From assembly GCA_964036195.1 (NCBI GenBank), contig OZ038450.1, positions 15,440,701-15,504,700 of the forward strand: DNA of 64,000 bases, written 5' to 3'. The DNA comes from Sphaerolaimus hirsutus (lineage: Eukaryota > Nematoda > Chromadorea > Monhysterida > Sphaerolaimidae). The first letter of the stretch is position 1; every line of letters starts with the position of its first letter. Positions 983 to 60,414 of the stretch are shown here, one piece after another. Under the pieces are notes generated by a model. That model worked only from the letters and a program-made list of their open reading frames with translations. It was not told the origin of the DNA and ran no database searches. A program made the position numbers and the translations under genes.

Positions 983-1055
983 TACATTTATTTTGACAGT
1001 GCGTACTGTCATGTGCCAAACTTGACGCGACCAAACCCTAGCAAAAGAGAAAAAT

Positions 1056-1219
1056 CAGGGCGCGCGCGAACGCGCAGCCCCGCACGCAAAAATTCCGCGG
1101 TAGGCACCCAACCACTCGTTGAGCCCTCGGGGGTCAGCGCGGCCGGCGTGCAGTGGCCGAGCCTCGCCCCGGGAGTCCGGCCCTCCTGACCGCCGGAAAC
1201 TCCCCCGCCAGGTAAGTTT
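1056..1219 (-). ncRNA. U1: U1 spliceosomal snRNA (copy 1)
   Basis: U1 RNA base-pairs with 5' splice sites as part of the U1 snRNP. Read on the minus strand, the 164-nt sequence starts AAACTTACCTGGCGGGGGAG, which contains the splice-site-recognition arm. It continues through stem-loop I, the GGGCGAGGCT block, stem-loop II with loop ACTGCACGCC (U1A-type, compare AUUGCACUCC), GCTGACCCC, Sm site AATTTTTGCG, and a stem-loop IV closed by a TTCG loop ending CCCTG. Length and block order match canonical U1. The stem-loop I loop, GGTCAGGAGG, differs from the usual GAUCACGAAG. The region 1250-1277 holds the shared promoter element, and 1021-1038 (downstream) has a TTTGGTCGCGTCAAG motif also found after the copy at 53943, a possible 3' box. 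Confidence 0.93.
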
Positions 1220-1249: not shown

Positions 1250-1277
1250 CGCCTGAAACAACTATGTCGCGGGTTCA
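1250..1277 (-). promoter_or_regulatory. U1 proximal sequence element (PSE-like)
   Basis: Minus-strand TGAACCCGCG begins at -58 relative to the RNA start and is followed by TGTTTCAGG. The same two blocks occur at the same distance in all seven U1 genes of this window, which is the position of the snRNA PSE in animals. Confidence 0.75.
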
Positions 1278-3401: not shown

Positions 3402-3491
3402 TATATTAGGTACATTGATTTTGGCAGTGTTTACCGGGGCAACATTAACTGCCAAACTTGACGTGTCCGAAGACCATCAAAAGAGAAAAAT

Positions 3492-3655
3492 CAGGGCGCG
3501 CGCGAACGCGCAGCCCCGCACACAAAAATTCCGCGGTAGGCACCCAACCACTCGTTGAGCCCTCGGGGGTCAGCGCGGCCGGCGTGCAGTGGCCGAGCCT
3601 CGCCCCGGGAGTCCGGCCCTCCTGACCGCCGGAAACTCCCTCGCCAGGTAAGTTT
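3492..3655 (-). ncRNA. U1: U1 spliceosomal snRNA (copy 2)
   Basis: A 164-nt minus-strand U1 gene with the canonical-type arm AAACTTACCTGG and Sm site AATTTTTG. It differs from copy 1 by few bases. One falls in the CGGGGG strand that pairs with CCCCCG (helix H), where CGAGGG breaks a pair, so this copy may be less stable. The promoter element starts at -58. Upstream sequence (TCAGGCGCCAACTC..) is shared with copy 4 at 8079, and a downstream block (GTACATTGATTTTGGCAGTG, 3410-3429) is shared with copies 1 and 4, so the duplicated unit is larger than the RNA. Confidence 0.9.
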
Positions 3656-3686: not shown

Positions 3687-3713
3687 GACTGAAACACCTA
3701 TGTCGCGGGTTCA
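3687..3713 (-). promoter_or_regulatory. U1 PSE-like element
   Basis: Minus-strand TGAACCCGCG at -58 followed by GTGTTTCA, as in the other U1 copies. Confidence 0.7.
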
Positions 3714-6001: not shown

Positions 6002-6026
6002 TGAACCCGCGACTGCGATGTTTCAA
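6002..6026 (+). promoter_or_regulatory. U1 PSE-like element (variant copy)
   Basis: TGAACCCGCG starts at -58 and TGTTTCAA follows at 6019. The element is conserved although the rest of the upstream DNA differs from the canonical copies. Confidence 0.7.
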
Positions 6027-6059: not shown

Positions 6060-6223
6060 AAACTAACCTGGCGGGGGAGGGGCGGCGGTCAGGAGGGCCG
6101 GACTCCCGGGGCGAGGCGCACCCCTTGCACGCCGGGTGCCGCTGACCCCCGAGGCCTCAGCGAGTGGCTGGGCGCCTACCGCAGAATTTAGGCGTGAGGG
6201 GCAACGCGTTCGCGCGTGCCCTG
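6060..6223 (+). ncRNA. U1: Variant U1 snRNA, 5' arm altered (copy 3)
   Basis: 164 nt with all U1 blocks, but the recognition arm reads AAACTAACCTGG: position 6 is A instead of U. It would pair with GGTTAGTTT rather than GGTAAGTTT. The rest carries the variant set seen again at 60251: stem-loop II arms GCACCC/GGGTGC, stem-loop III CAGC/GCTG, and stem-loop IV ACGCG/CGCGT. Unlike that copy, its Sm site reads AATTTAGGCG instead of AATTTTTGCG, which should weaken Sm-ring assembly, so this copy may be a pseudogene. Confidence 0.88.
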
Positions 6224-8078: not shown

Positions 8079-8242
8079 CAGGGCGCGCGCGAACGCGCAG
8101 CCCCTCACACAAAAATTCCGCGGTAGGCACCCAACCACTCGTTGAGCCCTCGGGGGTCAGCGCGGCCGGCGTGCAGTGGCCGAGCCTCGCCCCGGGAGTC
8201 CGGCCCTCCTGACCGCCGGAAACTCCCCCGCCAGGTAAGTTT
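8079..8242 (-). ncRNA. U1: U1 spliceosomal snRNA (copy 4)
   Basis: 164-nt canonical-arm U1 on the minus strand, with intact Sm site AATTTTTG and stem-loop IV TTCG loop. The upstream region shares TCAGGCGCCAACTC and CAGGTCATCAATT with copy 2. Downstream it keeps GTACATTTATTTTGGCAGTG (8028-8047). Confidence 0.92.
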
Positions 8243-8272: not shown

Positions 8273-8300
8273 CGCCTGAAACAACTTTCTCGCGGGTTCA
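8273..8300 (-). promoter_or_regulatory. U1 PSE-like element
   Basis: TGAACCCGCG at -58 on the minus strand, followed by TTGTTTCAGG. Confidence 0.7.
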
Positions 8301-10994: not shown

Positions 10995-13900
10995 GTTTGT
11001 GAATTTGGTGCCCAATTGCACGGTTTTATCGCCGCCCAAAATTATTTTGCTGTTCGTGTGACGATTTGTATAAATTGAACAATTTAATTAATTGGGAGAG
11101 TATTGTGGCGTGTGAAATGGAACTAATTTTATCGTCTGGCATATTGCCGCTCCACACACAGCAATTTTTAAAAAAGTTCGAACGTTTCTTGGCAAAGTAT
11201 GAATTCCGTATTTTTTCTAATAGAAGAGCGCCGTCCTATTTTTTCGTCAACCTCCAATAGAACGACAGGTAAACAAGTTGACGAAAAGAAATAGAACGGC
11301 GCTCTTCTATTAGAAGAAATACGGTATTCATAGTTCATACTTCACCAAAAAACGTTCGAACTTATTTTTAAAATCGCTGTGTGTGGAGCGCCATTAATCA
11401 CTTTTGGGATACCGAAATGTTCCACGAACTTATTACAGAAATTCCACCCACCACAAGTTTTTACCGTTGAGAAACTACGTTGACAAAAATTGCAGGGAAA
11501 GCTCCAAATGCACGCATTGAAATGCAGTGAATGTGATTTCGGTTGCAGTCGACGGGCGGCCCTATCAGCACACATTCGCAAACATCACTCGCCGCCAGGC
11601 AAAATTCCAGATGCTCTAACAAAAATGACTCCAAATTCGGGAGAGGTTAGGCATATGTAGGGTTGGGACGATATATCGTATCGAATATCGGATATCGACT
11701 ATTTTTTTATATCGACTATCGATATCGAATATCGACTATTTTTTTCTCGGTATTTTCGATATTCTGCACCATCCATGCATGAATTAAAAAGTGCCAGTAA
11801 TGGCACTTTTAGAAAACAATCTTGTAGACAATTCTAAAAAAATGTGCGCGCAAGCGCGCACTTTGTCATGACAGGTATCACATGGCATCACATGTCATTA
11901 CATAACAGGTATTTCCATATCACCAGTTGCGGCAGCCTCAAATCTATGCACACGCACTCACAAATGTCCATGTCAGAGTATATGTATGATTAATACATAC
12001 AAATAAATACCATCACATTTGGCACCAATGCCAACATCAATGACGGCATGGCCTGGTGCCTATGAGTGGCACCTTTTCCTTACCACATCAGTCAAATTTT
12101 AGAGGGGGGTTCCATTCATCATATGTTACTTCATTTCCTCATTTTGACTGTTGTGAGCCTTGTCAAAAGTTTGTGAACATCAGCTACTTTTGAGTAAAGA
12201 GATGATCAACTATGTTTGTGACCAGATGGAAATACAATATGCACCTTGATATACGCCATGCTATACCAAAAGCAAAATATTGAAAATATCGAAATATCGA
12301 TATTGAATATCGACCATATTCTGATATCGAATACCTATATCGAATATCGAAATCGAGGGTCCATATCGTATCGATATCGAATATCGAGTTTCAAAAAATA
12401 TATATCGAATATCGATATCGAAAAGTCATATCGTCCCAACCCTAGGCATATGCATCATTTTTTATTACTTTTTGAAGAATTAGTTATCAGTATCGAATGT
12501 TCGGATGCGGGAGCGGAACTCATGATCAAAAATTTTAGTTGAAAATCATATTTTTGGAGGATAAAACAGGCACACAAAAACAGTGTTCCGTTCGGTAGAC
12601 TTATTTTTGCCACAATTGTAATTCCCCACCAACCCACCACTCCTCCCAGGTGTCCTACACGTGCACGATATGCCCATTCGTATCCAAATACCGGGAGAGT
12701 TTGCAACGGCACGTGAAGCGGGTGCACACTGCGCCCACCTACTACAAGTGCAACTACTGCGACTTCCAAGGGAAAGACCAGGTGCCAGTTCCGCAAGTGG
12801 AGAAGTGAGAAGTAAAATGGCAAAAGTGAGGTGAAATGGCAAAAGCGAAGTAAAATGGCAAAAGTGAGCTGAAATGGCAAGTAAATTGGCAAAAGCGACA
12901 TCAAAAAATAAAAACAAAAGTAATTTCTTTTCGCTTCTGCCATTTTCCTTCTCAATTCACTTAGCTTTTGCCATTTTACTTCTCACTTCTCCACTTGAGG
13001 AACTAACCCCAGCGCTACCTTGCCAAGCACATGGTCATGAAGCACGCGCCCGACGAGCTAAAAGAGTGGTACAAGTGTGGACACTGCCAGTATAAGACAC
13101 TCAGGAAGGAACGATTGACACTGCACGTGAAGGCGAAGCATGTTGATCCTAGTCAGATTGAGTGGATATGCTGTGATTTGTGCGATTTTAAGGTTCGGCG
13201 GGGATTTATGAAATGAGGCGCTCACTTCTAAAAGTCGATAGCTCTGAAACATGACGAAAACTAAACTAAAATTGAGTTAAACAATGAAACGGCATCTAGG
13301 GTTGGCCGATGTTTTTTTAAAAACGTTTTAAAAAACAACAACGTTTTTTTATCGGCCGAAATTAAAAAAAAGTTTTAAAAAAAACATCGGCTGAAATTTT
13401 TAGTACTGAGCACTAGGTATTTTGCCAAATTTTTGCGCTCAAGCGCGCAATTTCACACACAAATTGACATTGGTGGTTGTTTTCATTGGTCTTGTGGCAT
13501 TTTTAGTATCAAAGTATCCATTTATATGTGCTACCATGGGTTAATAAGCCGTCATATGTTGCTGTAGTATATAATATTGAGGTAATGTGCTTCCATGTAC
13601 CTCCACAGTGTGTAACTTCACTCCCAAAGTAACAACCTCCTTTTAAAACCTTGTTTGATGACTATTCCGTGCCAAACTTTGCCTGAAGTCACGAACATTC
13701 GACTATAAGGCAATATACGAACGATATGTCGACGAAAAATGGATATTTTTGACACAAATCACCACTTATAATGCTATCCCATGGCTCCACAGACATTATA
13801 TGGTCATATATAACATCACAGAGTATTGCCACTGTCTGATATACCTATATATGTTGACACAAGGTCATATCTGGGAGCTTTTAAAAAAAACGTTTTTTAT

Positions 13901-16900
13901 TAAAAAAAACGTTTTTAAAAAAACAACGTTTTTTTTAAAAAAAACATCGAGTTAAAAAAAACGTTTTTTTTCCAACCCTAACGGCATCTAAAATTCCGCA
14001 TATTTTTTAACATTCAACAACATAAATTTTTGCAATCTTGCACCTGAAGTTGCAATTTTGTTGATATCTCCAGCAATAAGTTGATTAGTCGATGCTGTAT
14101 CCAAAGCCAATCAATAGATACACTTTCTGTGGGGAAAAATAGTAACGAATTCGATAAGTGCATTATAGGGACTGATTTCTTAAAGTATATAACTCCATAA
14201 ATTGCTGACACGCATCTTGTGAAATTTCATAGTGAATTTGATCACAGAGTCAATGTTACCCACCGCAGACGAAAACCAAGGACAACCTGAAGCGTCACAA
14301 ACGGCGTCACACCGAAAACCGGCCTGGCGCCGCTTTCCGCCAGCCGGACGGCAGCTACAAGTGCACCGAGTGCCCGCGCACATTCAACAACCTGAACAAC
14401 ATGACGCAGCACCGCACGTTAGCCCATCGCAGGGGCAACGGCGTCGGCTGGTTTCAGTGCGACCAGTGCAGCCATAGGACGCATCGATTGGAGTCGCTGC
14501 ACAAACACAAGAGGGCTGCACATTGTGTCGATGCGGATCCGTCTGTTCGGTTGTTTCCATTGTGTGTTTTTAACCCTGTGCCGGCGGCCATACTTTGTTT
14601 GTCATTTTTCACTTTTTAAAATGCTGAACTAAGTCAAATATGATAAGTAATGACATTTCTTATCATATTTGACTTCTTTTAAATGTGTTCAGCACTTTAA
14701 AAATTGGAAAGTGACAAAAAAACGTCAAAAATGTCTATTTTTGATTTTTTTTGCTACTTTTCATTTTATAAAGTGAAGATATTCCTTGAATAAAGTCAAC
14801 ATGTAATGAGTAAAGATTTCTCATCATATAAATGGGTCTACATGGCCGCCGGGTAGAATTTCATGTCCGTCCGGTCTACATGGCCAGCGGGTTTACATGG
14901 CCAGTGAGCCTACGTCGTTTTTTGGGGGGTTTGGGCGTGGAGCGTGTTAAAAAACATTCGGGACGTTTGCTATACACGCGTTTTGCAATATCGATATGAC
15001 AACTTTGGTTATGCTTAGATCGCATATATTGTATTGAGTGTCATAACTTTTATAGATATCTAAGATTGACAAAAATTATAAAACAAAATTTTCTGCATTC
15101 CTTGATATTTCTCTCTCATTCTTGCAATCCTCCATTTACAGCTCGACGGCAGCTCAACCCAGTGCAAAACACAGCAAAGACAAGCGTAAGCGGGCGCTAT
15201 TACGCTGCCCCAAGTGCGAGTACACGGTGCTGAAGCACACATCCATGGCGCAGCACATGCTGGCGGTGCACACCTCGCCCGACCAAGTGGTGCACTGCAA
15301 CCTGTGCGCTTACATGTTTGAAAATGAAAAGGCATTGGAGAAGCACCAATTGATTGTGCACCCGTTCCAAAATTGCTCTCAGCCAATCGCATGGCGACAG
15401 TGTTCAAAGTGCAATTACAGGGCTAAAAGCAACGTGCACATGAGCAGACATATGCACTACCATCATTCGGAGGGTCGCAGAGAGGTTAGACTTTCTTGGT
15501 ATCATTGCATAGATGCGGCAGCTGCATTCTGGGCTACAGGTTGCACTGATGGCATAGCCAGTGGGTGCTATGTCACTGGGTTGCACCAAAGCCAAAATAT
15601 TCAAGTTTTCTTTTGTCATTTTTAATCATCGTTGTCAAGTGCCATTTGTGAGAAATGATGAATTCAGACAAAAATTCGGTGAACACTATTTTCCCATCAC
15701 TAACAATAATTTTTGCCCTTAACAATCGAAAGTGTAAACTCATAAACTGAAAAATTCGAACACAGCTGGAAAAAATACCCATGCTGCGCTGCACGGCGCC
15801 CCACTGCAGCTACAGCACCAGGTACGCGCCCGCCCTCACGGTGCACGTGCAGAAGAAACACAGACAGCACGGTCAGGACGTGTCCGTCGGCGACATTGTG
15901 CTAACTGTTGGTTGAGTTGGTGGGTATTTTGTTGCAATTTCCTGCAAAAACAAGTTCGGTAACCTGTTTTTATGAATATCAGCATCACTATTGGTTTTAA
16001 AAATTTCACGCGAATATCGGTATACGATATTACTCTCTTTCGAGGTTAATGTGGATTTTCGTGGTCAATAAAAATGTTTTTACTCAAAGTAGTGTTTACT
16101 GTTTTATGATACGGAAAAATTGTAAATAAACTTGCGATAAACTAAAAAATAGTCATCATTCAATATGTTTATAAAATTAACACGTTGAAAGGCAAGCTTT
16201 GAAAACCACTGGCGCCGCCCCCAGGCGAGCCCGCACGTGTGCACGCAGTGCGATTACAAAGCGTCAACCGAATCGCGACTCGAGCGCCACAAGCGCGCCT
16301 ATCACCCAGCCAACCCGAATGACCGGCCGCACGTGTGCCCCATTTGCGGCTACACATCGAAATGGCGCATGAATCTCGACCGGCATTACATCTACAAACA
16401 CGCGGCCGCCCATGAGATTCCGTGGTTGACGTGCTCCGAGTGTGGGCACAAAGCCAAAACGAGGGATAGAATGGCGCAGCATAGGTGTCCATCTTTGGTT
16501 GGTTGGGTACTGAGATGGGTATCTTTGGCTATACTCGGCGGATCGCAAAGTATGCACAGAATCCTACCGTAATTTTATGAATAAAATCTTGTGATCAATT
16601 TCGTGATTTAATTTCTTTAGTAAAAACGGAATAGAGTTGCACGGCACACTCAAATTTTCAGTTGCAGTTCGAACACTTTTTCAAGGGCGGAATTCAAAAG
16701 GGCGGAATTAAAATCGGGGGTGGAATTCAAAAACGTCCGAACCGCCCTCGATCTCAATTCCGCACATGAAACGTTCGAACACTTTTTCGACGGCGGAATT
16801 GCCTTGAATTGTGCACGGGCGGAATTAATTCGGAAAAGGCGGAAAGCGCAATGCATTTGAACAACGTCCGCACTTTTTTACTCATGGCGGAATGGTGCAT

Positions 16901-34830: not shown

Positions 34831-37800
34831 GTTAGTGTGGGGTTTCCAGGAAGTTTGGAAGTTGGCCCAATGGTGAACCAATTTCCAGCTAGTGCAAATG
34901 AGGACGCAAATGAAGCACATTTTGCTCCTCATGATCAGCACCATTAGATTGCATTGTTTCATTAGTTCAAAAAGTATTTGATTGTTTTTGCATTTTACAC
35001 GCATACGGTGCATCGATCCAGCCAAACCTATCTTCCGCACTAGATCATCTTGTAGTATTGCTTGGCATTTGTGAAGAACAACAGCTGGGGCACTCCCAGA
35101 CCCTGTAAAATGTCATGTGTCAAGTAAAAGACCATGAAACATGTCACGTGTCATGTAAAAAACCCTGGAAAGTGTCAAATGATGTAAAAGACCCTGTAAA
35201 GTGTCATGTGTATCAAAATCTTATTTTATCGCATCCAAATCTTATGTTTTTGTATCCAAATCTTACGTCAAAAGTCGGATTTGGATACAAAAACATAAGA
35301 TCTGGACATGGCAACATAAGAGTTGGATACACATGACACTTTACAGGATTTTTACATGACATTTGACACTTTACGGGGTCTTTTACCTGACACATGACAT
35401 TTTACAGTGTCTTGTACACTTTACAGGGTCTTTTACAGGGTCTGGGAGTGGCACCATGTATTTTATTTGCCGGTCAACTAAAAACGACAAAAAACCGCGC
35501 GCAGACACAGTCCCAGTCTCTTCCGGATTTTCACACTCGAAAGTCACACGCTGAGAAGCATCCAATGGTGGATGGCCAATACCAGTGTCCCCAGTGCATA
35601 TAACTATCTGGGGGTGGCATTTTAAGGGGTTGCATCTACAAAATATTGTTGGGGGACCGTCACAGTATGTTGATGAAAAAAGTCACATGATAAATTATTA
35701 ATGAAGTTCACGGATAGTGAAATAATGAAATGTCAAGGGGAAAATTGATGGGTACTTTTTATTGTGGTGGTCTGTGTTGGTGGAATTCACTGAAAAATGT
35801 GTCTCGCTCTATACCTGTTGGTATAGTAATTAGAATACATAAAGGGAAACGTATTGTTGATAGCCATTGTTCCAACACTTATGGAAAGGTTTACTGTAAA
35901 TGCTTCCGGAAAGATCAAGCACCTGAGATATTTATCTTCTCCACTGTGTTGGTGCCATTCTGTCACCCTTCATATTCAAAGTGAAATAGAAGTGGTTTCA
36001 CTGGAAAAATATCACAAGTCGCTACCGCACCATAAATTTTTTTTGTAGAGTCTGCCCTTAAAGTGCCATACCCAAATGTTTCTATGCTTCGGTGTCCGCG
36101 TCGAACTACGAAACATAGCGGCTTACTACAACATATCAAACTTGTACATACAAGCTCCGGACATGTCAGTTGGTTCCAGTGCGATCAGTGCGAAACCCGG
36201 ACTAGCACCAAAATCGGATTGAGGTTGCACAAGCACCGCTGCCATTCTGACGTTGTGTTAGTTTGGGTTTGATAGCAGACAAATAAAAAGATCTGAAATT
36301 ATTTACCTTTATTTAAAATGAATCTTGGCTAGGGTTCAAACGATATATCGTATCGAATATCGGATATCGACCATTTTTTAATATCGAATATCGATATCGA
36401 AAATTTTGAAAAAATATCGAATATCGAATATCGATATCGAAAATTTTGAAAAAATATCGATATCGAATATCGACCATATTTTCGATATATCGAACCTGTA
36501 TAATGTCCTTAATCACGTTATTATTTTTGTTTTGAGATATTTGTGATTAATTTGATTTGCTTATAGTATCTAAGTTGATGAGTAAAAGTAAAGTATTTGA
36601 TGTCATCTTTGTTGGAGTGCTTACTCCTTCTTGTATTTGTTTGGCGACATACCTACTGAACTACCTACCTCAAATTTGAAGCCAGAAAATGCTGATATGC
36701 TGCTTTTTTGCAACATGCCCTTCAACAATTGGGTTATAAGTATGAATTGTAATATCTACCAATTTTTGTTTGTCTGATACAATTCGATTCGTCATGTTTT
36801 TTTCTTCGATTTTCTCATTCTGACCATTGTAAACCTTGTTAAAATCAATTGTACTTTTCAGTAAAGAGATAATCAACCATGTTTGCAACCATATGAAAAT
36901 ACAATATGCTGCTTGAAATATGCCTTGCTATACCAAAAGCTAAATATCAAATATCGAAAATATCGATATCGAATATCGACCATTTTTTAGTATCGAATAT
37001 CGATATCGAGGGTCCAGGTCCATATCGTATCGAATATCGATATCGAAAATTTTGAAAAAATATCGAATATCGAATATCGATATCGAAAATTTTGAAAAAA
37101 TATCGAATATCGAATATCGATATCGAAAAGTGATATCGTTTGAACCCTAATCTTGGCGTTGTGAGTTGACTAATTCTCAGATGGCGCTGGAAAACTGGTA
37201 CGATCCGGTCCCTAAAAACTTGCTCCCAGTGCTGAATCTGAATCCGACAATGTGTATCCTTTTTCAGAGCACCTCCAATAGCAAGAAAGCCAAAGGGCAG
37301 CAGTTCGGCGCAACGTATGAAGTGTCCCGAGTGCGAGTACACGATCCAGAGCAACGTGTCCATGCAGCAGCACAAGCTGGCCGTGCACACGCCCGCAGAC
37401 AAAGTGCTCCACTGCAATCTGTGCGCCCACCTGTTCCCCGACCAGACAGAGCTGGAACATCACCAACTGAAAGTGCACCCAAACAAAGATTGTAACAAGC
37501 CTACATCGTGGCACAAATGTCCAAAGTGTAATTATCTCGCCAAAGCAGCATTTCTAGTAACTACCCATATAAATCGACATCACTCCGACGGAGTGACACA
37601 GGTTGGTCATGCGACAACTCTCGTGTAAACTCTCAGCGCATCTGAGCTCTCAGCGCATGTAAGGCGCCGTTTACACGGTTACTTTGTGACGACCAAAATT
37701 TCGATTTTGTCAACCATATTTTGGGATAAAAATCAATTAGTAGATAGATTGGACGCCTCAATTGATCATGATTTTATCAACCTCACTGCATGCAACCATA

Positions 37801-40800: not shown

Positions 40801-43800
40801 GCCAGAAGCTGAAACTTGGAGGAGGTATTGGTGCAACCCCCCTCTACTTCGCATGAATTTGGGGGGTCGCGGCGACCCCTCTCAGGCTCGGTCGCCCTAA
40901 GTGCAATTTTTTTTGGCTTTTATGGTGTCCCACAGCAGGTCTGGCACCAGCTGATTTCTGAGCTGTGGTAGGGGTATAAATCTAAAATTTTGGGGATGTG
41001 TTACCAACACCACTCCCCTACTATACACTATTCAATAATGTGAGATAAATGTGAAAAATTTCAAAAAAATTCTATTACTCTCTAAAAAACACCACCCCCA
41101 ATAGATGGATGACAAAAAAATCACTTTTTGGAACTTTTTTATTAGACACTTAAAGAGCTGGTTTACGATACTGGTTTGAGATTTATACTCCTCCCACAGC
41201 TCAGAAATCAGCGGGTGCCGGACCTGCTGTGGGACACCAAAACAGCCAAAAAAAATTGCACTTAGGGAGACCCACCCTCAGAGGGGGCGCCGCGACCCCC
41301 CAAATTCATGCGAAGTAGAGGGGGGTTGCGCCAATATCTCCCCCAAGTTTCAGCCTCTGGGGCGCCTTAGAACTGGGAATAGGATGTAAGAAGCAAAACC
41401 AAAAAATGAGTGCCGGACGTGACCGGGAAGGTGTTTATAAACTAAGGGATAGGAAAGTGTTAGGTATAAAGCCTGAATATGGAAGTTGAGTCGGAAAATT
41501 CAATAGAGCACTGGGCAAAATTATCGGGGGGGGGGGTGTCGGTGCACAAGTAGCAAAAGTAGTAGAAGGGCGCCATGGTGCGGCTTACTCTGGCGCCCTC
41601 AAATGGCGCCATTCCATCGCTAATCATCTGTATATTTGATGTTTTTGTCAAGGGAGGGTCGCAGGGGTTCGATATATGCGGTTTTTCTAGCTTTAGAAGG
41701 AAAATGGGGGAAAAATAACTAGATACATATGTAGATAGCTGGAGCGTTTGGGGGTAACCCAACCCCCTCCGACCCCCATACTGAACCCCTGCAGTGCCAA
41801 TGAAGACCCAGTGCTCAATAATGGGGGCTGTACCTAAGCACCAGGTCTACATTGGCACCGGACATTGTTACTTGTGCACCGGGTTTACTTGTGCACTGGT
41901 CCTGCGCCGATTTATCAATCTCTTGATGTATGTCTTGCATGCAATTGTATCATCTATTTGAATCAAATGATACACCCTTGCACCCTCAAGGTTTTCAAAT
42001 GCGACAAGTGCGAAAACGTTTTGCCAAGTGAGAAGCAACTGTCACGGCACAAGCTGGCATACCACGGCAAGGACAAGTCTCTCCTGCCTTACGCCTGCTC
42101 AAAGTGCAACTACAGGTCGAAGTACAAGCACAACTTGGAAAGGCACTACAATGTGAGCTGCGCCGCGCCACACGAGGTCAAGTGGTTCAAATGTGACAAA
42201 TGCGACTACAAGACCAGAAACAACGATTCACTTATTAGCAAGCACAGTTGCTCCAAGGTTAGCGTGCCCTTTATTTTGTATCTTACTGACTAGGCCTACC
42301 TAGCTGGAGTTTTTAAAACCAATGACCCTAGCACCTGTAGCCTTTTTAATTTTTACAGGTGCCAGTGGACTGAAGAATACATTTCAGAAAACAATTCCAT
42401 ACTGTTGTACATAAAAAAGTACGTTATCATATTTTTTGTATGCAAGTGTGAGACTTTCCTCAAATTATTCCCCCATGCAAATGAAGACAGGACAAAAATG
42501 TATAAACACAGGTGCCCATCTCTGAAAAACTCGAAATACAGAAAGTGTTTTCCGAAACGAACTTCCTCACAACTTCACACAGTATTCGATCAGTAAGAAA
42601 AACGATGGTTGCGCGCCGCCCTCAGCACACCAGAGTTCACCAGCTGTGAGTGTTACTGCTGGGCGTCCAAACGGGGCCGGGTCTGTGCACAAGTAAACCC
42701 GGTGCCCAAGTAGGGCCGGTGCACAAGTTGTAATACCCGGTGCCCAAGTAGGCCCGGTGCCCAAGTTAAGTGCCCGTACTTGGGCACCGGGCCGGGCATT
42801 TACTTGTGCACCGGGCGGCTTTTTACTTGAGCATACATGTGCATTGCTTGGGCACCACTCTGAGGCAAAAATGGCGCTGCTCTGCAGTCCATGGCGCCAC
42901 TGCAGAAAAATGGCACCATTTTCCATCCATTCATGCTGCATAGCAAATTCTTTGTATAGTACACGAGTGCATCAATATTTGAATTTTAACACCTGATAGA
43001 TAAGGTATGAAGAGGTGGAACATGTAATAAATAGGAAGTGGAGATACTGACATTTGAGTGAAATTTCACCCGAAACTCTTTATCTCCACTGAATCAGCTG
43101 AGGTGATGTCAAAAAACTCATTATAACTATAAGCATATGAAGGGTGTGCTTCTAAAAGTACCGATCTACAAATTTTTCAAATTTGAGTTAGGACCATTTT
43201 TGGGGTCCCCATAAACATGTGCTTCAAAAAAATATATAATATGTGGGGGGTGCGAAATTCAATTTTGAGATATGAGGGGTCGAAAAAAGCAAAAAAAATC
43301 GCAAAATACGGTTTTTGAAATTTTAAAAGTACCGATCTACAAGCTTTTTCAGCTTTTGTGTCTTTAAAAGTACCGATCTACACACTTTTTTCAAAATTGT
43401 TCTTTTAAATGTACCGATCTGCACATTATTTTTTGTGCTTCTAAAAGTACCGATGTCAGATCGGCGTCTGATTCAGCAAAAACTCATTTTGTGCTTTTTT
43501 ATTATGGGTAAAAGTACCGATCTACAGCTGTCTGATTTTTTGCTTTAAAAAATACCGATCTACATGCTATTACCAATTTGTTCCTTTAAAATGTACTGTA
43601 CTACAAAAATATAATTCACTAAATTTTATATAGCTAGTGTTATGTGTATAATCAGTGATTATACCCATGCATGTGGATACCAAACAATATGGCCAAAATA
43701 CCCATACCCAAAATTCTCATACCCAATACCCAAGTATGGGTATTGCATACTCCAAACTTTCAATTGCGATTATCTCAAAATCGATTTTTTGTAGATCGGT

Positions 43801-48970: not shown

Positions 48971-49583
48971 GGTGCCCCATGTGTGTGCCGATCGTATGTG
49001 CGCGCCAGGCATATGTGCGCGGCGGGCCGGTGAGGGGGGAGGTCTGTCATAAGGAGGCCGGTGAGGGGGGAGGTCTGTCATAAGGAGGCCGCTGAGGGGG
49101 GAGGAATAATTTTCAGTGACCTACAGTTGATAAACGATAAAATAATGGCAAAACCAAAGCGGCCGAATTGCCCTTTGTCGAATCGGGACTGCTTACCGTG
49201 CTGGTAGTGTGTGCGTGTGTGCATATTGGACCGCGTGCGCGTGTCTGCGTGTGCGTTTGCGTGCGGGTGCGCGCGCTCGTGTGCGTGTCTAGTCTGCTGC
49301 CAACCCTAGTGTGTGCTGTGCTCGCTCAGACATTGCGTGCAGCTGTGTGTGACCATTTTCTTACAAAATACCTTTCTTATTCCACTGGTCCATCGTGAAG
49401 AGTTAGGCGCTTATCAATATCTCAAACTTTAGTCTCTTCACTTTCAGGATTTACATTGTGTATCTAAAACTTAAATAAAACCCCCAAATAGGTAGATCGC
49501 CTGTTTAGCAACAATCTAACAATTAAAAAACCCTCCTAATTAAATACCTCATAAACTTCACCCACGCCAGTCGCAGGCGCGCC

Positions 49584-49747
49584 ATGAGCACTGCCGCAAT
49601 GATCGTCCACCGGCACCGGTGCGACCAGTGCAGCTACTCGGCGCGGCAGCGGAGCACCCTGCAGCGGCACGTGCGCTGCATGCACACGCCCGCCGAGCAG
49701 ATCGACTGGCTGCACTGCGACCACTGCGATTACAGGACCAAACTCAG
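49584..49747 (+). CDS. ZF-D exon 1 (possible start), fingers 1-2a
   Basis: ATG in GCGCCATGA context. CDQCSYSARQRSTLQRH, then CDHCDYRTKLR. The reading frame is also open 13 bp upstream to an acceptor-like CCAG, so this may be an internal exon. Finger spacing demands the exon end at CTCAG|GCTGGT, a GC rather than GT donor; the nearby GT (49752) puts exon 2 out of frame. Confidence 0.65.
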
Positions 49748-52700
49748 GCTGGTGAATGAGTGTGGTTGTGCTCACGTGCCGCTTCCGCGAATTGAGAAGT
49801 GAGAAGTAAAATGGCAAATGCGAAGTGAAGTGAGATGTGAATTGGCAAAGGCGAAGTGAAATGGCAAGTAAATTGGCAAAGGCGAAGTGAAATGGCAAGT
49901 AAATTGGCAAAGGCGAAGTGAAATGGCAAGTAAATTGGCAAAGGCGAAGTACAAAAACTTAAAATAAAGGTAATTTCCCTTTTTCGCTTTTGCCAATTTC
50001 CTTCTCAATTCACTTCTCATTTCACTTCGCATTTGCCATTTTACTTCTCAATTTGCGGAACTGGCCCCTGGTCGCTGGTTGTTGACCGCTGAGCCAATGT
50101 GACTTTTAAAGCGCTTATGGTTCAGTGGGCAGTTTGGTAAAATTCGGTGTTCTAGGTCCGGTGTTTATCGCCGCACCCTGTATATGTCAAGCAACTATTT
50201 TTGCGTTTTTGCACGTTAAATGACAAGACCATTCATAAGTGCGGGACTGGCACTTGGAAACTGCAAGTTCGTGTCAAGTCGCAAGTAAAAGTGCTGGTCA
50301 AATTACTGTAAACTACTAGTGTTGGGAATTTCAAATATTTTGCGTTTAGGTTTCGGGTACAAAAAGTGCTCGGGTCGGTTCGGGTCCAAACCTATCTACC
50401 TATCAGTTGAACATCACTAAAGACACTTTTTTATTCACTTACTTTTCATTTGACAAGTTAATGAATTCCCCTCAGGTCGCATCTTTCGAAGCATGTGCAG
50501 CGGCGGCACGGCGGCGATACTCAGTCAACTGCAGCCGCTGGCACTCAACTGGCCAGTATGGTTTGCGTGCCAGATGTCTTCCAGCAGGTGGTCCCATTGG
50601 AGAAGGACACTGTCTCAACTGTTGTTGGCACCGAGCCAACTGTGAATAAGGTATTCTGATTTCCCATATTGTGACTTCAAATCTAGTTGACATCCCTAGG
50701 ATATTTGAACTCGCGTGAAATTTTTGATAGGTTCAATTTCTTCAATCAGTTACTTTTTTGTGAATAATTTTTGGAAATTATTTTTGCATTTTCAATTTAA
50801 ATTTATCCCCAGCAAGTGCATTTCCCGCGGAAGACCGCTAGTTATGCATAACGATGGCTAAAAGTGTTTAAAAAAATTTAAGTGTTTTTTTCTATTAAAC
50901 ATGACAGTTTCAATTTTCTTTGCAGGACTTGCACGCGTGCGATCGGTGCGAATACGTGACGCACTACGAGTCGCGGCTGCGGCAGCACAAGACCGTGCGG
51001 CACGCGTTGCCTGTTGAGGAAAGTCGCTTCAGGGGCATCGTCTCGATGCGCGGCAACAACAGGCGACGGGCGCAGACAAACAATACGGCTGGCAGTGCAC
51101 TGCCCGTCGTGAAACGAGCAACTTCTATGGTTTGTATTTATGGGCGGAATTCAATGGCGGCCTGCACACGATTTAGTTGACACATGTGTGTCAAATAGTC
51201 TGTCAAATCAGATTTCGCCATCACATGTCGCAGAGAGTTCTCCAAATGCACGCAAATGTGGAGAAAAAAAATATTACAGCAGATGCATTGGAAGATCGCT
51301 CTACGATGCGCATCCGAGTTGACACATGTGTCAACTAGCGTGTGGGCAAATCGTAGCCTTTACTTTGCACATTTCCATTATCCATCTAGCGACGGCACGT
51401 GTGCACGCTGTGCGGCTACAACACGCCCCACCTGTACCGGCTGCGCGCGCACATCACCTACAAGCACACGCCCTTGGAGCAAATCACCTGGTACACGTGC
51501 AACCTGTGCGCTTACAAAGCCAAGGTGCCCCGGGATCTGCGCAATCATTGTAAACGAATGCATCGCACTGAGGGAAATTTGGATGAACTGATCATGCGCG
51601 ATAATGTGCGTTGACTTGTTTTTTCAGATCGTGAAAACTTTTATTTATTTCAAACTCACTGAAAATATACTTTTTTGAAGATTTTTTCTTCACATCAACT
51701 TAATTGTAGCTAGGGTTCAAACGGGATCCCCATTCCGAATCCCGATAATTTCCGGGATGGACGGTCCCGATTCCGTGATCTCAATCCCGATCCCTATCCC
51801 GAATATTCCAAAAACCAATCCCGATCGCGAAAAGTGAATCCCGTTTGAACCCTAATTGTAACGTTATAACGCCGTATTTCACCCCCTCTGTCAGGCGACC
51901 ACGTCGCAACAGCAGCAGCACGCAGCTGTAGCACTGAACGCTGACCATAGTGGCACAGAAATCTACACCACATCCTGCGATGCCGCCAGCGGTGCTATTC
52001 AGGTACCGGCGCGACAAAAATTCTCTTTAAAAAAACCTTTTCCCTAATTTTCCGCATTCGCTCATATTTTTAACACCTCGCAAAGGTATGCTACTCGTGC
52101 AGCCAGTGCAATTTCACGTGCAGTGACGGTGCCACGCTGCAGTCTCACTGTCACTTTGCGCACGCCGCTGCCGTGGTGCGCAGTGATGCCGCGCAGCAGC
52201 AACGATCTACTCAGGTAGGCTAGGATACTTTTTATGTTAGAAATTAGTCATACAGGGGCCAGTTCCGCAAGTGGAAAAGTTAAGAGTTAAAATTTAAGAG
52301 TTGTGTAAAATGACAAATGACAAGTTATGAGTAAAGTTAAGAGTTGAGAAAAAAGACAAATGATTTTACTCAACTCTTAACTTTTAACTTTACTCTTAAC
52401 TTATCATTTATCATTTTACTCAACTCTTAAGTTTTAACTCTTAACTTTTCCACTTGCGGAACCGGCACCAAATGTAGGTAAACTCGGCAGACATGAAAGG
52501 AATCAGTGATTCGGCCCTTACGTACCAATTTTAAATTTCGTTAAAATTGTTAAGTTAATTTTGAATTTGAATGAATGCCTTCCAATCGATTCATGGTAAA
52601 TCTTATTCAATCCGACGTTTTATGCGAGAACAGGATACACTGGACACGCATATTGTCATATGAAAGCAGATAACAGGGTATTTTATTGTAACAGCCCGGA

Positions 52701-55700
52701 CAAATTCCAACAAAAAAGTACGTATGTGTGCGTGCGATAGAACAAGGGAAGAACGACCCTGTACACTGTACACCACTAGCGAAATCTGGATCGTTTTGAA
52801 AATCTAAAAATTGCTCTGAATAACATAAAATGCTCACTACGTTCGTAATAATAAGAAATTATCGTATATTTATCAAGTGTATTTAGATCTTAAATTCAAA
52901 TTTCGACGGTGACGTTCACTTATCTAATTTAAAAATTTGTTGATGGTCATTCCTACGCATGGAATACGAGTGTCAATAACAATGAAATTGGGTTAGAATG
53001 GCACTTGTACAAAAATTCGTTAGACCATTGACTCGCATAATGTCTGCCGAGTTTACTTGTAGTGAAGAATGAAAAATTGCTCCAGGTGAATGCCATAGAG
53101 ATTTCACCTTACTAAAAGTATGGCAGTTTACAGTGTCTTTACAGGAGACATGACATTTTACAGGGTATTTTACATGACAAATGACATTTTACAAGGTATT
53201 TTACATGGCAAATGACATTTTACAGGGTCTTTTCCATTGTACAGGGTCTGTGACTAGCACCTGGGTTTCATAAACCACCCAGAAAATCTAAAATGTTATA
53301 AACAAAGAATACAGGCACTTTGTCACATAAATCACTCGTTCGCTCGCAGGCGGACAACGTGCACACGTGCGCCGACTGCAGCTACACGACGCGGCACGCG
53401 TTCAGTCTGAAACGGCACCGCCTGTGCTATCACACGCCGTCGGAGCGCATCGGCTGGCTGCGCTGCTCGCAGTGCGGCTACAAGTCCAAGTTCAAGGCGC
53501 ACCTGCGCGTGCATGGCCAGCGGAGGCACGGCGTCGACGTGACCAGCCACATGGTGCAGTCCATGTCCAAGCTGGTCGACGATGCATCGCCGCAGAACGA
53601 CCCCGCTGCGCTCGCCCTGGTGGGTACGCCGCAGAGCACTCGCGTTGCTAGGAATTTCTCGTGCCCTCCAATTCAGCGATTCGTCTTTACTTTCACTATG
53701 TAAATAAATAAGACTAAAAGTTGAGTGATACTGGACGTGGACAGACTTCAAACGGTCACGTTTGTCTAATGTTTGAATCTGTACGGTACGCGTGTCAAAC
53801 CGTGATTCAAGTAGATAGTTAACAGTGTTTTAATGAACCAAAGGCTTGTCTACTTGAGCCACGCGTCACTTTGTCTCATGTGCCTGAACCCGCGACATAG
53901 TTGTTTCAGGCGTGCGTGGGCCGCGCAGCGGCGAGCACTCATAAACTTACCTGGCGGGGGAGTTTCCGGCGGTCAGGAGGGCCGGACTCCCGGGGCGAGG
54001 CTCGGCCACTGCACGCCGGCCGCGCTGACCCCCGAGGGCTCAACGAGTGGTTGGGTGCCTACCGCGGAATTTTTGCGTGCGGGGCTGCGCGTTCGCGCGC
54101 GCCCTGATTCATTTGATGTTTGGTCGTGTCAGGAGATCAAGCCTATTACACATGTAAACCCATTACGCATCTGACGCATTATAGACACATTGTACCCGCA
54201 GGGGTAAGAAAGGGGGTGGGTAACCACTGCCCAGCTATCTATCTATACCAGAGGCAATTTTTTGGCTACTTTCCCTTGAACAGCCCCCGCCCCTGCAAAT
54301 TGCCTAGCTATCTGGAGCACTTTTACCCTAATTTTCACCGTCGTTGATTTTCATACTTTTTATAGATTTTCACCTTTAAAATCACTAGGTTATGTGTTTT
54401 ATGGATGCCGGATTTAGTCAAATGCATACCGGGTCTAAATGTGTGATGGGTTTACATGTGTAATGGCACAGCCAAAATAAATGCCACTGCCAAAATAAAT
54501 GTTAAAAAATACATACAAAATTTATTGGTTGTATTCACAACCATACCGCACACATACAGGCAACTGATGGTGCTGGTGCGAGCTGCAATGCAGGCAGCAT
54601 GCCGTACACTTACAATTCTAGTCTGGTACGTTTTTAAGAGATATCTTTTCTGTACATTACTTACAGTCTGCCCGCGCATATTTTACACAGCATTCGCTCA
54701 GGGCGTCTATTCCTGCTCGCTGTGCGCGTACGCCTCGCCGCGGCACGGCTGCGTTAAGCGGCACGTGCAGTCGCAGCACGCGCTCGCCCCGCTGCAGTGT
54801 GATTATGACGGTGCACAGAGGCAGCCGCCACAGCCTGAGTCAGTTTTCATCCACGTTGATGGTCCACTTCCAAAGTGCATAATTTTGAAAATTGCGTTAA
54901 GCCTGGAAACTTGCAGTTGATCTGGTCCATTTGTTCGCTATGTATGCAGCAAGTTCACTCTTGTGGCTATTTTTGTGGGGGAAAAAACAAAGAAAGTTGA
55001 TATGTTCAATGTGGACACTGATTTCGAAAAGTCGATAAGACCAGTAATTGCCTAAGGCCAATTTTCCAGAACCAAGTACAAAAGAAATTGCAAAAAGAGG
55101 TTTAAAATTTGAAATCCTGATGAAATCCAAGGCCTTGATTGATTTATTACAAATTTACAACTACCAGATTTCTCCAATACATTTTGAAGAGTAGAGATGG
55201 AAAATTTGACAGTTAAAAACGTTGTTAGATCTTTACATTTTCAGTGCGCAAGTCAATCGGACCTACACTACTAGCAGAGAATCAATTGGACATAAATCTT
55301 TAACTGTCAAACCCACCTACCACAATGTATAACCCCCCCCCCCCCACAGACATCCAATCGCCAGCACCGGAGGCGCGCCGGACGTACAGCAGCACGCGTG
55401 CGGCCAGTGCAGCCGGCACTTCGCCACTCGCCACCAGCTGGCGGCGCACGCGCGCGCCCACTTGCGCACCGACGCGCACACGTGCCCCATGTGCGGCAGG
55501 GGCTTCTCGCTCAAAGCCAACATGATGAGGTCGGGTTGTTGGGAGATAGATACCTACCTAGTTTTGAAGTCCCTGTTGTTTGGTGTTGGACAATTGTCAA
55601 GACCCGACAAAGCAACAAAGATTATTTGGGTGTTGCATTACATTTTGTGAGTGCACGAGCATTACATTTAACTTGACATTTACAATTATTATTTCAACAT

Positions 55701-59653: not shown

Positions 59654-59678
59654 TGAACCCGTGATGTTCGTGTTTCAC
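59654..59678 (+). promoter_or_regulatory. U1 PSE-like element
   Basis: TGAACCCGTG at -58 and TGTTTCAC; the most diverged of the seven but at the same position. Confidence 0.65.
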
Positions 59679-59711: not shown

Positions 59712-59875
59712 AAACTTACCTGGCGGGGGAGTTTCCGGCGGTCAGGAGGGCCGGACTCCCGGGGCGAGGCTCGGCCACTGCACGCCGGCCGCGCTGACCC
59801 CCGAGGGCTCAACGAGTGGTTGGGTGCCTACCGCGGAATTTTTGCGTGCGGGGCTGCGCGTTCGCGCGCGCCCTG
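59712..59875 (+). ncRNA. U1: U1 spliceosomal snRNA (copy 6)
   Basis: 164 nt, canonical-type arm and all blocks intact. Only 375 bp upstream of the variant copy 7, same strand. Stem-loop II arms CGGCC/GGCCG, stem-loop III CAAC/GTTG, stem-loop IV GCGCG/CGCGC. Confidence 0.93.
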
Positions 59876-60192
59876 AATCTTCTGTTTGCTTTTACCTAAC
59901 TTCCTCTATGTCACTCAATAGCCATCTGATATCATCTAAAAGTGATAGCAAGGGCGTTTTGCCCGATGCTCAACAGCGAAAGTATTTTAAAAATACCTTA
60001 CGCTTTAGTATCCATACTGAACATTTGGAAAGTGTATTTACGCTTACGCTTTCCAAAATACCGGTATTTTAACAACTCTGGTGTTGAGGAGCATAAAAAG
60101 CAACTTACGCGAATTCAAACATTTATTCCATCGAATGTATTTACAATTTTCATCCCATCTTTGCACAAGGTCGCGAATGCTCACCTGTTGCG

Positions 60193-60217
60193 TGAACCCG
60201 CGGCGGCGATGTTTCAA
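60193..60217 (+). promoter_or_regulatory. U1 PSE-like element (variant copy)
   Basis: TGAACCCGCG at -58 and TGTTTCAA, as in the other variant at 6060. Confidence 0.7.
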
Positions 60218-60250: not shown

Positions 60251-60414
60251 AAACTAACCTGGCGGGGGAGGGGCGGCGGTCAGGAGGGCCGGACTCCCGG
60301 GGCGAGGCGCACCCCTTGCACGCCGGGTGCCGCTGACCCCCGAGGCCTCAGCGAGTGGCTGGGCGCCTACCGCAGAATTTTTGCGTGAGGGGCAACGCGT
60401 TCGCGCGTGCCCTG
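60251..60414 (+). ncRNA. U1: Variant U1 snRNA, 5' arm AAACTAACC (copy 7)
   Basis: Complete 164-nt U1 with a position-6 U-to-A change in the splice-site-recognition arm and an intact Sm site (AATTTTTGCG). Against copy 6 it differs at many stem positions but keeps pairing: stem-loop II GCACCC/GGGTGC for CGGCC/GGCCG, stem-loop III CAGC/GCTG for CAAC/GTTG, stem-loop IV ACGCG/CGCGT for GCGCG/CGCGC. The stem-loop II loop keeps TTGCAC. Stem I is less well paired. With intact PSE and Sm site it is the best candidate for an expressed variant U1. Confidence 0.92.

Follow-up and report, generated by a model that had tools for sequence, protein, structure and literature searches.

In 1986 Zhuang and Weiner reportedly used an engineered suppressor U1 in which a base change in the arm compensated a donor change; the U1 variant described here (A6-U1, with A at position 6 of the 5' arm) would resemble it in this arm–donor compensation, although the suppressor was artificial. 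Human vU1.3 and vU1.4 are, like A6-U1, paralogues with their own genes and a change in the recognition end, and they are expressed, with altered donor use linked to them (PMC13172311, PMC5159530); many human vU1s are changed at the 5' end (PMC5159530). Planarian U1C1 and U1C2 are likewise invertebrate variants in which one recognition base is altered and the structure is kept (PMC6312358). Expressed variants with one altered arm base are therefore a kind already known from human and planarian. Drosophila U1 isoforms, with several genes and developmental specialisation, are also comparable, but the variants G123C and G134U sit outside the arm, unlike A6 (PMC10645366, PMC4291461). Fritillaria, with its massively altered introns, offers a parallel in combining a genome-wide intron shift with the search for a matching snRNA change; there, unlike here, both U1 versions share an identical 5' end, and the proposed answer is U2AF paralogues together with m6A (PMC13326754).

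The differences from the closest cases are specific. The change in vU1.3 and vU1.4 is C to T and is proposed for AT donors, with expression below a quarter of that of U1, and other vU1s may have a change at base 6 (PMC13172311, PMC5159530); that in U1C1 and U1C2 is C to U facing exon position -1, with enrichment in stem cells and no matching donor shift in the accessible part of the report (PMC6312358). The changes named for these four variants are not at base 6, and the portions of the two reports available to us describe no genome-wide donor shift (PMC13172311, PMC6312358). U1 variants in human cells are reported to be more than 1000-fold rarer than canonical U1 in spliceosomes (PMC10645366), which counts against A6-U1 as a functional reader of donors. 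For mammalian splice sites, U1 is described as absolutely conserved at the bases opposite donor positions -2 to +5 (PMC4671708). Among titles and abstracts, mostly from outside the subscription journals, we recognised no report of an A6 U1 class or of its match to donors.

In the 64-kb window, that is, the whole stretch of Sphaerolaimus hirsutus DNA analysed, a cmscan with the Rfam model RF00003 found seven U1 genes above the cut-off of 69.5 bits. The initial annotation had read A at position 6 in the copies at 60251 and 6060 and U in the other five, and this was confirmed. The two A6 genes match the U1 model over its full length (model 1–166) with 99.9 and 92.3 bits, passing the covariance-model check proposed for them, and the five genes with U at base 6 (here the U6 class) reach 114–116 bits each. 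Upstream of all seven genes, starting exactly 58 nt away, stands TGAACCCGYG-N7-TGTTTCA, of which the window holds no other exact occurrence; we call it PSE-like, a putative promoter element, because of its position and conservation. The genes and their elements are as follows.

60251..60414, + strand: A6-class U1 snRNA gene, arm AAACUAACCUG, Sm site intact (RF00003 99.9 bits, alignment)
60193..60216, + strand: PSE-like element TGAACCCGCG-N7-TGTTTCA of the A6 gene at 60251, starting 58 nt upstream
6060..6223, + strand: A6-class U1 snRNA gene, possibly dying, its Sm site altered to AAUUUAGG (RF00003 92.3 bits)
6002..6025, + strand: PSE-like element of the gene at 6060
59712..59876, + strand: U6-class U1 gene, neighbour of 60251, the starts 539 nt apart (Rfam 116.3 bits)
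59654..59677, + strand: PSE-like element of the gene at 59712
53943..54107, + strand: U6-class U1 gene (Rfam 116.3 bits)
53885..53908, + strand: PSE-like element of the gene at 53943
1055..1219, - strand: U6-class U1 gene (Rfam 116.3 bits)
1254..1277, - strand: PSE-like element of the gene at 1055
3491..3655, - strand: U6-class U1 gene (Rfam 114.1 bits)
3690..3713, - strand: PSE-like element of the gene at 3491
8079..8242, - strand: U6-class U1 gene (Rfam 115.0 bits)
8277..8300, - strand: PSE-like element of the gene at 8079

Between the U1 clusters, in the zone 12599–45419, a multi-exon C2H2 zinc-finger gene is repeated in tandem on the + strand, the three copies lying about 12 kb apart, with more zinc-finger exons on the + strand at 11523 and 49527–55647; a protein homology search with one zinc-finger exon gave no match. 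Patterns taken from the U1 5' end were also sought at the DNA level in viral and bacterial collections, where they hit 20 loci, and none of the 17 scanned with Rfam holds a U1.

The observation proved larger than first described. The 348-Mb genome contains at least 25 U1 genes on four contigs, at least 16 of the U6 class and at least nine of the A6 class, these counts being lower bounds because scoring was confined to the best 42 of 7,821 candidates. All nine A6 copies found score above the Rfam cut-off; four lie on contig C1, three on C3 and one each on C2 and C16. The two classes occur as dispersed pairs, with each A6 copy starting 0.54–2.0 kb from some U6-class copy. In an unrooted tree, whose bootstrap has not yet settled, a single branch with support 100/99 separates A6 from U6-class copies; the A6 genes, at least nine, group together and have covarying stems. 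The PSE-like element stands at its fixed distance before 25/25 genomic U1 genes, with small changes in some. In all 25 copies base 2 of the arm is A, which departs from the Rfam consensus AUACUUACC.

Among A6 copies the arm shows no divergence (0%), the RNA 3.9%, the PSE-like element 4.4% and the spacer 42.6%; among U6-class copies the corresponding values are 0, 3.3, 2.7 and 35.7%. An RNA divergence of 3.9% against about 43% in the spacer means that the A6 copies are not decayed pseudogenes, and they show neither the unconstrained decay of U1 pseudogenes nor a loss of the promoter-like element. Within the window, the variant differs from U6-class copies at 0 or 1 of the 17 motif positions and at 12–16 of 34 spacer positions. 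The Sm site AAUUUUUG is intact in eight of the nine A6 copies genome-wide, the exception being 6060, where AAUUUAGG takes its place. Eight columns are fixed differently between the classes, base 6 among them. At column 126, both classes have G on C1 and both classes of the paired loci elsewhere have T, a pattern that suggests local exchange between classes without erasing base 6; judged from these alignments, local homogenisation seems to affect some bases but to spare base 6.

Relative to 59712, the variant at 60251 carries 20 substitutions and three gap columns. The claim that pairing is kept in spite of changes on both sides of stems II, III and IV holds for four pairs (two in stem II, one each in III and IV), which are changed on both sides and still Watson–Crick, a number reached in 1 of 20,000 trials with 20 substitutions placed at random. 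It does not hold throughout, since in the fixed-column structure the variant no longer forms four pairs, namely 21-44 (one side now a gap), 24-43, 97-115 and 139-165, and two stem I losses in the window A6 copies are uncompensated; base 97 can re-pair with 116 through a register shift, and pair 60-81 is gained. Genome-wide, stem II of the A6 class comes in three pairings, GCACCC/GGGTGC, GCGCCC/GGGCGC and GCATCC/GGATGC. Over 15 distinct sequences, 95.9% of the cells of the cloverleaf and stem IV are paired, with stem I weakened in the A6 copies of C1. Changes on both sides affect six pairs (mean of 3.3 in shuffles, attained in 4/500) and 23 cells (mean of 7.5 in shuffles, attained in 0/500), a comparison that the relatedness of copies can inflate; with partners slid by one to three columns, at most two such pairs appeared. 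The number of further pair types goes against covariation, with 13 observed and a shuffled mean of 14.9.

Free folding gave the cloverleaf as the minimum-energy fold in 0 of the 15 distinct sequences. Its gap from the optimum is 1.5–11.2 kcal/mol for A6 copies (7.6 for 60251, 11.2 for the C16 copy and 1.5 for one C3 copy) and 1.4, for the common form, up to 7.4 kcal/mol in the U6 class. As proteins shape U1, this gap weighs little, yet it does not help the case for a functional A6-U1. In U1 generally, loop I serves U1-70K and loop II serves U1A. Here the former is GGUCAGGAGG in 9/9 A6 and 14/16 U6-class copies, where the Rfam model has GAUCAAGAAG; the latter starts with CUUGCAC in seven of nine A6 copies, UUUGCAC in one and AUUGCAC in one, and with ACUGCAC in 14/16 U6-class copies, where the model has AUUGCAC.

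We consider it probable, at about 60%, that the A6 class is a functional U1 paralogue reading GUU donors and the U6 class reads GUA and GUG donors, with both classes maintained. The genome would then keep two kinds of U1 snRNA: the A6 base would pair with U at intron +3, and A6-U1 would thus read GUU-type donors such as GUUAGU and GUUGGU, which the U6 class pairs poorly, leaving the usual GUA and GUG donors to the U6 class. We infer that A6-U1 is transcribed, is assembled into a U1 snRNP and is preferred at U+3 donors.

The initial annotation had proposed a preference for GTTAGT-type donors, and the donors bear this out in part, U+3 donors being unexpectedly common in the window (8 of 16 unambiguous donors of the zinc-finger genes) and elsewhere (14 of 50 inferred donors); the preference itself belongs to the reading above. 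The window donors were located by aligning paralogues and following the reading phase, in part by eye and blind to +3; they come from 22 internal exon ends, of which 16 were used and six ambiguous or unclear ones omitted (14242, 15790, 50905, 53302, 54447 and 55333). Examples are given below, the slash marking the exon border.

36257..36264, + strand: inferred zinc-finger gene donor GUUAGUUU, complementary to A6-U1 bases 1–8 without a mismatch, in a phase that fits the next exon at 37268
15485..15490, + strand: inferred U+3 donor GAG/GUUAGA
42258..42263, + strand: inferred U+3 donor AAG/GUUAGC
37602..37607, + strand: inferred U+3 donor CAG/GUUGGU

Outside the window, donors were placed by a purpose-written spliced aligner that required GT...AG and ignored +3, with human protein queries, in OGT, STK32, RPB11, PSMD6 and nine tubulin loci (from the places behind 85 exon matches). 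U+3 was found in 8/33 donors of tubulins, 4/12 of OGT, 1/2 of STK32, 1/2 of RPB11 and 0/1 of PSMD6, this set of 50 including three doubtful donors (L068 GTACAC, L067 GTAAAA and the in-frame STK32 GTGCAT). In total, +3 is U in 22 of 66 donors, G in 31, A in nine and C in four; five uncounted exon ends without a verified acceptor (three at L048, one each in STK32 and RPB11) are all G+3, and with them the share is 22/71. The higher share in the window zinc-finger genes than elsewhere is not significant (8/16 vs 11/41, P 0.12, on an earlier donor set).

In human, U at +3 is found in about 3% of donors; a few per cent is usual in animals, well below the share of 22/66 seen here, although it may be fairly common in some, such as nematodes. 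Against assumed baselines of 3, 10 and 15%, 14/50 gives P of about 2e-10, 3e-4 and 0.013, values that are too small because the window genes are tandem copies and the tubulins paralogues. At +3, T is present 22 times and C four times (P 0.007 if the expected ratio is 60:40). Matches elsewhere in the donor are 4.45 of 8 for U+3 and 4.40 for purine+3 (P 0.88), so that U+3 donors do not make up for their +3 base by pairing better at other positions, which is what a paired +3 would predict. Median duplex energies are -8.75 for U+3 donors with A6 and -5.6 with the U6 class, and -7.9 for purine+3 donors with the U6 class and -6.0 with A6. At one shared intron position, some tubulin genes have G+3 and others T+3, so the donors are not strictly partitioned. 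Words of the form AG/GTNAGT, counted over 190 kb of random sequence, were too scarce for a judgement, with AGGTTAGT found 0 times against 1.5 expected.

The strongest competing explanation also makes A6-U1 a functional, expressed RNA, for example a stage- or tissue-specific isoform, but treats its arm base as a tolerated change, U+3 being common through a spliceosome simply relaxed at +3 in this lineage. We regard this as unlikely, though it deserves weight: the A6 RNA and its PSE-like element would be constrained irrespective of donors, U+3 is also seen in introns whose counterparts in paralogues have G, and U1 isoforms are often developmentally regulated (PMC4291461). However, mere relaxation is not expected to yield the bias of T over C, and base 6 is fixed inside each class, although 17 and 22 other columns are variable there. 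The roles of competitor or decoy, or of a suppressor of premature polyadenylation rather than a splicing factor, have been proposed for U1 variants (PMC6312358, PMC10645366); for A6-U1 they appear improbable, as nothing specific points there and the presence of U+3 donors at inferred exon ends speaks for splicing.

There is also little chance that the A6 genes arose in a recent burst of duplication and lack a function, a reading to which the changed Sm site of 6060 and the weakened stem I of the C1 copies lend some credit. Such a burst fits poorly with the compensated pairs and the three kinds of stem II spread over four contigs, and with an RNA divergence about one-tenth of that of the spacer while the PSE-like element is kept in nine copies (small changes in some) and the Sm site in 8/9. 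Furthermore, the variants at 60251 and 6060 differ at 2/164 positions in the RNA, both in the Sm site, and at 14/139 upstream (P 6e-4). The initial annotation would have yielded to A6 copies scattered among decayed pseudogenes with unpaired changes; the nine A6 genes found genome-wide are grouped, covarying and largely intact in the Sm site.

If the reading of A6-U1 as a paralogue for GUU donors is true, nine U1 genes altered at base 6 and many U+3 donors would represent natural co-evolution of U1 and donors, and it would become possible to study whether the introns of a single cell can be shared out between two U1 snRNPs. A split donor code, in which U+3 and purine+3 donors are read by different U1s and a normally invariant snRNA base and the splice sites have co-diverged in one animal, is a tentative extension to which we give slightly less than even odds.

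Several minor observations accompany these results. A 26th, U1-like match at C637:14320 (69.4 bits) was excluded from the 25 U1 genes, its contig having a foreign look. That contig (16,245 bases) carries this odd sub-cut-off U1, the only U6 snRNA match and a weak U5 match, and is probably foreign DNA in the assembly. The U6 snRNA model (RF00026) gave no match outside C637 among the best 48 of 26,903 candidates scored, and U5 gave 37 matches elsewhere; the genome's own U6 snRNA may be divergent or missed. Long open reading frames at L043:2849-8153, of 1177 and 560 aa, have the look of a mobile element. In the window, the 231-nt intron 12782–13012 consists almost entirely of one terminal-inverted-repeat element, GTGCCAGTTCCGCAAG...CTTGAGGAACTAACCCCAG, and is introner-like. 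An introner origin of the U+3 donors was set aside, as this sole complete terminal-repeat intron starts with GTGCCA. Introns starting like it, with AG/GTGCCA, were seen at L048, in the STK32 gene of L059 and in the tubulin gene L067.
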